From Nitrosarchaeum sp. (GTDB lineage Archaea; Thermoproteota; Nitrososphaeria; Nitrososphaerales; Nitrosopumilaceae), in assembly GCA_023265135.1 (NCBI GenBank), contig JAHFUM010000001.1:516960-580959 (forward strand): a DNA stretch of 64,000 nucleotides. Reading direction: 5' to 3'. Both the position numbers and the translations under genes were made by a program. Shown piece after piece: positions 14,811 to 63,238 of this stretch (the first letter of the stretch is position 1; each line of letters opens with the position of its first letter). Below the pieces are notes generated by a model. It did no database searches. It saw only the letters and a list, made by a program, of their open reading frames with translations, and was not told the DNA's origin.

Positions 14811-14884
14811 GCAGTCATAGTATAGCCTGGTTAGTATTCGGGGTTTCCAACCCTGTGACGCGGGTTCGAATCCCGCTGACTGCA
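14811..14884 (+). tRNA. tRNA-Gly (anticodon UCC)
   Basis: A 74-nt cloverleaf. Acceptor stem GCAGTCA/TGACTGC with discriminator A. D-stem GTAT/GTAT with G-U ends and GG in the loop. Anticodon stem CGGGG/CCCTG with loop TTTCCAA, so the anticodon is TCC. T-arm GCGGG-TTCGAAT-CCCGC. CCA is not encoded, and no intron is present. A CTTTTTAA tract directly after the gene probably ends transcription. Confidence 0.95.
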
Positions 14885-24099: not shown

Positions 24100-24369
24100 T
24101 TGTCTTACAGTATATTTGGTCAAGTGGTTGGAGTCAGAAAGTATTCTAATGGAGATATTGAAATAGATTTCTATCATCAAGATGAAATTACTGAATACAA
24201 ATACTCTTCAAATTCTAAGATATCTGATAACTTCCCTAAAGAATTAGCTGAAACTTTAGCCTCAACTTTGGCATCTGATATCTGTATTGAAATTTACTTT
24301 AATGAGAATGGAAATCCAACTCATATTGAGTTAGAAGAATGTGATTATGACAATGATGAAGAAAATTGA
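24100..24369 (+). CDS. Small acidic protein of unknown function
   Basis: An 89-residue protein with a TTG start two bases after the hemerythrin stop. It is beta-rich at the start (SIFGQVVGVRKYSNGDIEIDFY) and strongly acidic at the end (ELEECDYDNDEEN). I do not recognise the family. The operon-like spacing suggests co-expression with the hemerythrin. Its stop codon directly abuts the P1 helix of the candidate ncRNA. Confidence 0.6.
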   Translation: MSYSIFGQVVGVRKYSNGDIEIDFYHQDEITEYKYSSNSKISDNFPKELAETLASTLASDICIEIYFNENGNPTHIELEECDYDNDEEN

Positions 24370-24480
24370 CGAGGACTTTAGCGGGAATCATGGACTTTGA
24401 TTATACCTCAAAGCTCAAGGCGTTCCCAAGAACACATTCGTCTTCACTCAAAACATAGTCAATGAGTGTCCTCGCCACCC
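24369..24480. ncRNA. Candidate structured RNA with four nested helices
   Basis: A visibly more GC-rich block between convergent genes. P1: CGAGGAC 24370-24376 with GTCCTCG 24468-24474. P2: GGGAA 24383-24387 with TTCCC 24423-24427. P3: 24391-24400 with 24408-24417 (TGGaCTTTGA/TCAAAGcTCA, one A-C mismatch, 7-nt loop). P4: CACTCA 24445-24450 with TGAGTG 24463-24468, sharing one base with P1. P2/P3 and P4 form two arms closed by P1. The minus strand is favoured: a TATA-like element at 24499-24506 puts a start near 24476, just before P1, and a T-rich stretch follows P1 on that strand. It matches no RNA class that I recognise. Confidence 0.6.
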
Positions 24481-24536
24481 ATCTATACGTCGAAATCATA
24501 CTTAAGGTAATCTCTAATTCTCATGATTGAGGGAAC

Positions 24537-61822: not shown

Positions 61823-63151
61823 ATGACTGGTACGCACATACTGAATATTGGTTTTGATGATACAGATTCCATAAAAGGAATGTGTACAACTTTTCTTGCT
61901 TACAAAATTGTTGATTTGCTAAAAAAACAGGAGACTGAATTTCTTGATTTTCCCAAATTAATTAGATTTAATCCTAATATTCCTTGGAAAACCAGAGGCA
62001 ATGGGGCTGTCTCTTTGCGAATAAGGACAAAAAACCCATCAAAAATAAAAAAACAAATCAAAAATCTTGTTGAAAAATACTCTGATATAAAAAACGGTGC
62101 AAATCCTGGACTGGTTTTTTACGAGAGTGAAGAAATTCCAGAACGCTTTACTAAGTTCAGCAAACTAGCTTTATGGCAGCTAATAAATAGAAATGACGCA
62201 AAAAAATTTGCGATAAAAAATAACATTGAATTTTTTTGCCAAGGAAACGGTCAAGGTCTTGTGGGTGCAATAGGTGCAATAGGTTATGATTTTAAAGATC
62301 ATACATTGGAGCTATTAAGTTATAGAAAAAATTCTAAATTTGGAAAACAAAGAATACTCTCTTCTGAAAGTGTAAAAACAATGCAGGAAAAAACATTGCC
62401 TTTTACCTTTAACAGCTTTGATGACAAAAAAGAAAGAGTCTTGATCACTCCACATGGTCCTGATCCTGTTTTTTATGGTGTACGTGGTGAAAATGTAGAC
62501 TCGTTACTTCATGCAACAAAAATCTTGAAAACCGACGAGAAGTTAGCAGGTCACATGATATTCAAATCTAATCAAGGCACAGGGGATCACTTAAAAAACG
62601 AATTTGATATTACGAATATTCGGCCATATGCTTCCGGAAAAATTACTGGAATTATATCTGATGAACCAAAAATTGTAAAGGGCGGTCATGTTTTCTTCTC
62701 GATTATTTCACATGGACATGAATTACGATGTGCTGTTTACAAACCAACTGGTATGTCTTCTGTAGCACTAAGTTTGATTAAAGGAGACAAAGTTTGCATT
62801 GGAGGTGGTATTAGAAAATCCTCAAAAAACCATCCTAGAATTCTAAATCTTGAGTTTCTTGACGTTATTCATCTTGAAAAAAATCTGATAGACTCTAATC
62901 CAATCTGTAAAAAATGTGACAAAAAAATGAAATCAAAAGGCAAGAATCAAGGATATCAATGTATAAAATGCGGAAAAAAGTCAGCAAATAAAATCATCTT
63001 AGAAATTCCCAGGAAAATCAAAAAACAATTGTACATCCCTAACGTTTCTGCTCACAGGCATCTTAGTAGACCGCTACAAAGAATTGGAAGAATTAACAAG
63101 GAATCTAAATTTAATGAATCCGCTTCTTGGTTTTGCGTATATGAAAAGTAG
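61823..63151 (+). CDS. tiaS: tRNA(Ile2) 2-agmatinylcytidine synthetase TiaS
   Basis: A 442-residue protein. ILNIGFDDTDSIKGMCTTFLAYKI and the ATP-hydrolysing N-terminal domain are followed by an OB-fold (YASGKITGIISDEPKIVKGGHVFFSII) and a zinc ribbon (NPICKKCDKKMKSKGKNQGYQCIKCGKKSANKI). It converts C34 of tRNA-Ile(CAU) to agmatidine so that AUA is read. Its TAG stop (63149-63151) overlaps the 3' end of the convergent initiator tRNA gene. Confidence 0.96.
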   Translation: MTGTHILNIGFDDTDSIKGMCTTFLAYKIVDLLKKQETEFLDFPKLIRFNPNIPWKTRGNGAVSLRIRTKNPSKIKKQIKNLVEKYSDIKNGANPGLVFYESEEIPERFTKFSKLALWQLINRNDAKKFAIKNNIEFFCQGNGQGLVGAIGAIGYDFKDHTLELLSYRKNSKFGKQRILSSESVKTMQEKTLPFTFNSFDDKKERVLITPHGPDPVFYGVRGENVDSLLHATKILKTDEKLAGHMIFKSNQGTGDHLKNEFDITNIRPYASGKITGIISDEPKIVKGGHVFFSIISHGHELRCAVYKPTGMSSVALSLIKGDKVCIGGGIRKSSKNHPRILNLEFLDVIHLEKNLIDSNPICKKCDKKMKSKGKNQGYQCIKCGKKSANKIILEIPRKIKKQLYIPNVSAHRHLSRPLQRIGRINKESKFNESASWFCVYEK

Positions 63152-63238
63152 CGGGGAGTAGATTTGAACTACTGAACTGCGGGTTATGAGCCCGCCGGGA
63201 TGACTTAGCCCTAAAGAGTCTGGCTTCCCCACCCCGCT
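63149..63238 (-). tRNA. Initiator tRNA-Met (CAU) with D-loop intron
   Basis: Minus strand. Acceptor AGCGGGG/CCCCGCT plus discriminator A; A1-U72 and three G-C pairs in the anticodon stem (GCGGG-CTCATAA-CCCGC) mark an initiator. T-arm AGTAG-TTCAAAT-CTACT. The D-stem GGGA/TCCC encloses a 25-base D-loop. Removing 15 bases restores a standard loop AGCCAGGTCA with GG at 18-19. CCA is not encoded. The precursor is 90 nt and mature 75 nt. Confidence 0.93.
63205..63219 (-). other. 15-nt intron in the initiator tRNA D-loop
   Basis: Intron ACTCTTTAGGGCTAA on the minus strand. A bulge-helix-bulge fits: exon AGCC pairs with intron GGCT (4 bp), the bulge AG^A carries the 5' splice site and AA^G the 3' site. 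A small CT/AG stem closes the intron loop. Both cut sites agree with the boundaries set independently by the mature D-loop. Probably removed by the archaeal splicing endonuclease. Confidence 0.85.

Follow-up and report, generated by a model that had tools for sequence, protein, structure and literature searches.

A stretch of 64,000 nt from Nitrosarchaeum sp. (contig JAHFUM010000001.1, positions 516,960 to 580,959; hereafter the window) probably contains, on its minus strand between a gene for an acidic protein and an aldehyde dehydrogenase (ALDH) gene, an autonomous gene for a small non-coding RNA (ncRNA). Judged from sequence, the RNA, here called family A, would fold into a four-way junction, belong to a class of related RNAs and act in trans as an RNA-protein particle or regulator; its gene appears to be accessory. 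Two features support reading family A as an independent ncRNA gene: its helices covary, and its own promoter lies at a fixed distance. A first-pass annotation, made from the letters of the window, had proposed an undescribed thaumarchaeal ncRNA at this site, and conservation, compensatory changes, a negative Rfam search and a conserved minus-strand TATA box support this proposal.

Conservation and fold of the family A RNA

BLAST detects the element in four other Nitrosarchaeum and two Nitrosopumilus genomes with 76-87% identity, flanked in every case by the same pair of genes. In 400 genomes of the order, a covariance model built from these seven sequences (R1) has matches in 24, all of them Nitrosopumilaceae, and a second model (R2) in 25; neither gave a convincing match elsewhere in the phylum. 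On the source contig, cmsearch places the RNA at 541325-541436 of the minus strand, scoring 115 bits with R1 and 104 bits with R2. The fold is maintained in Nitrosarchaeum, Nitrosopumilus and two other Nitrosopumilaceae genera; relatives that carry it include several Nitrosopumilus metagenome-assembled genomes, Marine Group I SCGC AAA799-D11 and Nitrosarchaeum sp. BD3. The elements of the fold, in window coordinates, are as follows.

24366..24477, minus strand: family A ncRNA gene, four-way junction (span of models R1/R2)
24468..24477, minus strand: 5' arm of P1, UGGCGAGGAC, near-invariant
24367..24376, minus strand: 3' arm of P1, GUCCUCGUCA; 24367-24369 doubles as the TGA stop of a plus-strand open reading frame (ORF)
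24446..24467, minus strand: P2 hairpin, pairs 24463-24467/24446-24450; two-sided changes at 5/5 pairs in relatives
24428..24444, minus strand: P3 hairpin, pairs 24439-24444/24428-24433
24383..24427, minus strand: P4, made up of lower stem, internal loop and upper stem
24423-24427/24383-24387, minus strand: P4 lower stem
24418-24422 with 24388-24390, minus strand: P4 internal loop, AAC[G/U]CC[U/G]UG against CAUGAUU
24408-24417/24391-24400, minus strand: P4 upper stem, with one A.C mismatch

The four helices named in the first-pass annotation are all present at the places it gave. Its P2 and P3 were correct and together form our P4, and its P4 is our P2. P1, described there as seven pairs, extends to ten (24468-24477/24367-24376), and a fifth hairpin at 24428-24444, our P3, had been overlooked; with this additional hairpin the fold becomes a four-way junction. 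P3 has six pairs in relatives (AAGAUC/GAUCUU), two of which are broken in the source genome. Both strands fold more stably than their dinucleotide shuffles, and the difference is larger on the minus strand (-35.2 kcal/mol, z = -2.9; 1/200 shuffles equally good).

In an alignment of 22 sequences fitted to the covariance model (A5), 96.8% of pair cells are standard and 16 of the 37 pairs show two-sided change. Shuffled controls average 6.5 such pairs, none of 500 shuffles reaches 16, and slid partners are only 35-51% paired. P1 and P4 behave likewise in an independent MAFFT alignment of 18 sequences, with two-sided change at 13/25 pairs. Substitutions in the helices are thus compensatory in both alignments. 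The conserved letters lie in P1 and in the internal loop of P4, and the loops and the P2/P3 region are variable; the most divergent copies (L057, L058, L062) depart from the rest in P2/P3 but retain P1 and P4. The RNA is read from the minus strand because the aligned pair cells comprise 89 G-U versus 7 A-C on that strand, a count that rules out plus-strand transcription. The covariance score of the opposite strand is lower by ~100 bits.

Copies occur as a rule once per genome. One genome has a second family A copy, L062 (G055:C81:24837-24949), in which both sides of P1 differ (UUGCGAGG/CCUCGCAA). Pattern matches outside the archaea (Streptomyces, Omnitrophota and others) and both viral matches lack covariance-model support and were set aside as chance; G519/L146 (E 0.008), which has no TATA box, was dropped.

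Comparison with known RNAs yielded no assignment. A scan of the window with Rfam 15 at gathering scores finds only a tRNA, at 14811, and nothing at the RNA locus, where a local scan at E<=10 returns chance matches only. The element had been said to be neither a tRNA nor an RNase P, signal recognition particle (SRP) or 5S RNA, and this holds: no covariance model matches, ARAGORN calls no tRNA here and the length differs. What family A has in common with SRP RNA, RNase P RNA, 5S rRNA and tRNA is that it is a small structured RNA with its own promoter. Both box C (RUGAUGA) and box D (CUGA) are absent from the RNA sequence, as is a 3' ACA characteristic of H/ACA RNAs (predicted 3' end ...UCCUCGUCAA). 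We found no description of this RNA or its class in the open-access literature, the Red Sea mdRNA-Seq paper included, although the subscription literature might hold one. Like family A, Thalassoarchaea ncRNA 1 (Tan1; 229 nt, from Marine Group II (MG-II) Euryarchaeota; PMC5069720) is an orphan, lineage-specific structured RNA of marine archaea outside Rfam; by description, however, family A is set apart from it as a 110-nt RNA of Nitrosopumilaceae that belongs to a promoter-sharing class. Elsewhere in the window, ARAGORN reports a tRNA-like gene at 63148-63238 (minus strand) with an odd four-base anticodon call (aagt), which scores below the Rfam gathering threshold.

Promoter, gene context and probable loss

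The minus-strand TATA-like element noticed in the first pass is present as TTAAGTAT at 24498-24505 and is conserved; the TATA box, 24498-24506, lies 29 nt before the predicted start at ~24477. In 24/24 strong copies, unrelated loci included, a TTTAAGTAT-like box begins 28-29 nt upstream of the first P1 position; for one of them (L056) the script had picked another site, and visual inspection of the upstream sequence gave the box, GTTAAGTAG at -29. This is the distance that separates an archaeal TATA box from the start site. Transcription is predicted to begin at the outer end of P1, ~29 nt past the TATA element, and would yield an RNA of ~110 nt that folds into the P1-P4 junction. Because the TATA box travels with the RNA, family A appears to be an autonomous transcription unit. 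The promoter and the neighbouring genes are:

24487..24506, minus strand: extended promoter CTTAAGTATGATTTCGACGT, TATA box within; also precedes family B (see below)
24100..24369, plus strand: acidic ORF of 89 aa, convergent with the RNA gene, its stop codon overlapping P1
24537..25868, minus strand: ALDH gene (Pfam Aldedh, E 1.1e-141), upstream neighbour of the RNA on the same strand

On its plus-strand side the RNA gene is flanked by a hemerythrin gene followed by the acidic ORF, which has no Pfam match; on the other side is the ALDH gene, whose stop lies ~60 nt before the RNA on the same strand. The description of the site as a stretch without an ORF is mostly right, except that the stop of the acidic ORF falls within a P1 arm. 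The Nitrosopumilus version of this ORF runs ~9 codons further, antisense across the RNA gene, and ends in DEDFVPEES and variants; there, RNA gene and acidic protein tail overlap antisense. A T-rich run past the P1 arm, also pointed out earlier, is antisense of acidic ORF codons and is not kept at other sites, and therefore is not established as a terminator.

Some family A copies reside at unrelated loci, beside a nirK-like gene, a UspA gene and elsewhere; L056 and L057, from two genera, are intergenic beside a nirK-like multicopper gene. At the ALDH site the RNA is not always present. In several Nitrosarchaeum genomes a short spacer separates the ALDH stop from the acidic ORF, and the TATA box is absent together with the RNA; in Nitrosopumilus many sites are empty, G285, G240, G375, G346 and G320 holding decayed remains. 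Mapping presence onto a tree of 80 ALDH loci takes 12 changes, and well-supported branches force no fewer than 7 of these; such a tree gives a number of changes but cannot prove which way they went. Nitrosarchaeum, Nitrosopumilus and a third genus (G030) all carry the gene at one shared site, which is most simply explained by repeated loss of an ancestral gene, and the relics favour loss. The family A gene thus appears to be non-essential and accessory. One ALDH gene (L087, in G006) contains in-frame stops (one TGA and one TAA in the matched 97 aa), from either assembly error or a pseudogene.

Related RNAs with a common promoter and closing stem

A further model, R3, was built from family A sequences only, promoter included. 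In 250 genomes of the family it finds the 24 strong loci and ~100 weak ones, 27 of which were examined in detail. Two of these, L210 and L214, are decayed family A relics. In the remaining 25, a TTAAATAT-like box, usually with ATTTTGACGTA after it, precedes an RNA closed by a hairpin stem, ACGAGRA...UYCUCGU as in family A, around interiors that differ. The extended promoter common to family A and these RNAs has the consensus TTAARTATnATTTTGACGT. By comparison, family A is thus shown to be one family of a putative Nitrosopumilaceae ncRNA class with a shared promoter and closing stem and with different interiors.

Family B, a widespread second family of ~103-nt RNAs, forms a three-way junction that features a conserved UCUGCGUMGUAGA hairpin and UCAUGUUA; an exact pattern of the family occurs in 50/212 genomes, including most Nitrosopumilus, and its P1 covaries on its own (ACGAG/CUCGU to ACAAG/CUUGU). 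Family B loci include L294:10618-10757 (minus strand) and L346-L375, with two copies each in G028, G258 and G216. Further forms occur in Nitrosarchaeum (L221, L222, L230; L229, L236) and elsewhere (L211, L213, L215). The latter three, from genera g22 and g20, are ~135 nt long with the same promoter and closing stem, and L215 is very stable (-60 kcal/mol). No class member examined is a tRNA, and the tested members of families B-E have no Rfam match.

Promoter profiles were ranked over all positions of a 1,645,259-bp Nitrosopumilus genome, 80 kb of which reads N. A profile made from family A only puts the A copy first (24.5 bits) and the B copy second (21.0 bits), ahead of the next position at 15.4. 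The A copy (L191) occupies 1,468,832-1,468,947 of the plus strand there, and the B copy 630,618-630,721 of the minus strand. The 34 tRNA genes of this genome lack the element and their promoters score <=3.1, which rules out a general tRNA-type promoter as the cause of the resemblance between A and B. The likeness of the two promoters therefore goes beyond that of general ncRNA promoters. The same genome has a third candidate at 655,717-655,810 of the minus strand (L295:15717-15810), ~58 nt long with closing stem GACGAGAG/CUCUCGUC; it is weaker (27 bits), its promoter ranks low, and it lies ~50 nt upstream of an ABC-transporter permease-like gene.

Mode of action and significance

That the RNAs share a promoter and a stem suggests a single regulon with a single binding protein. 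Through the promoter, one regulator, such as a particular TFB/TBP pair, would control the whole class; the stem, together with a GGAA...UUCC hairpin, may be where a common protein docks; and each RNA could owe its own task to its variable interior. Because paired letters and the internal loop are conserved while the loops vary, recognition by protein is favoured over base-pairing with mRNA.

The latter defines an alternative that we consider unlikely but serious, namely that family A is a trans-acting small RNA (sRNA) whose exposed loops pair with particular mRNAs to silence or activate them. An independent small gene with an accessory distribution would suit such a role, and archaeal sRNAs of this size are known. 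However, the conserved letters are in the stems and the P4 internal loop and not in the loops, and the Nitrosopumilus genome offers no long complementary stretch beyond chance, a search that did not cover short seeds. A trans-acting RNA-protein particle is favoured since protein recognition is likelier and long complementarity was not found.

The RNA lies on the ALDH strand, ~60 nt beyond the stop of that gene, and its stable stem falls between convergent genes, a position that would also fit a 3' untranslated element or a processing or termination structure of the ALDH mRNA, or a bidirectional terminator. This is improbable: many relatives have the ALDH gene and the convergent ORF without the RNA, copies at unrelated sites retain fold and TATA box, and termination needs neither a multi-helix fold with an invariant internal loop nor a promoter. 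A small mobile or selfish cassette that happens to fold, akin to a miniature inverted-repeat transposable element, could have P1 as its terminal inverted repeat and would account for the patchy distribution over several genomic sites; yet there is normally one copy per genome, the same site is occupied across genera, the substitution pattern is purifying with compensatory changes, and genes decay in place instead of being excised and re-inserted. No target duplications were seen, though no systematic search was made, and we hold this origin to be very improbable. A cis-acting riboswitch or leader, suggested by the L056 copy, which has a nirK-like gene ~130 nt downstream in the same orientation, is just as doubtful and largely refuted by gene context, as the downstream gene at the main site is convergent, the nirK-like gene at L057 is divergent and no downstream gene is constant.

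Several observations weigh against an autonomous, trans-acting class member. A profile made from family B only ranks the A promoter 7th, and in each genome taken singly B matches R3 weakly (E ~0.01), with the promoter supplying much of the score. The class showed neither a protein partner nor a gene that regularly adjoins it, and no long antisense target was found in the 1,645,259-bp genome. That the RNA acts in trans, as a particle or regulator, is a step that we infer.

The class may belong to an unrecognised RNA-based system of ammonia-oxidizing archaea, in which paralogous structured RNAs (families A-E) combine one dedicated extended promoter and one protein-recognised closing stem with interchangeable interiors of different functions; we advance this tentatively, at somewhat less than even chances. 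Such a system would be comparable to guide-RNA or 6S/Y-RNA systems in organisation, not by homology. C/D box and H/ACA guide RNAs are likewise small RNAs of many families with common ends, variable interiors and probably shared proteins; in contrast to them, the common element here is the closing stem and not the boxes.

Nitrosopumilaceae are among the most abundant archaea of the ocean and drivers of nitrification, and the open-access literature searched yielded no regulatory RNA specific to their lineage. A precise family is now defined by strand, predicted start, fold, promoter, paralogues, empty sites and decayed relics. The multiplicity of TFB factors in these archaea is unexplained, and the extended promoter shared by the class may provide a handle on it.
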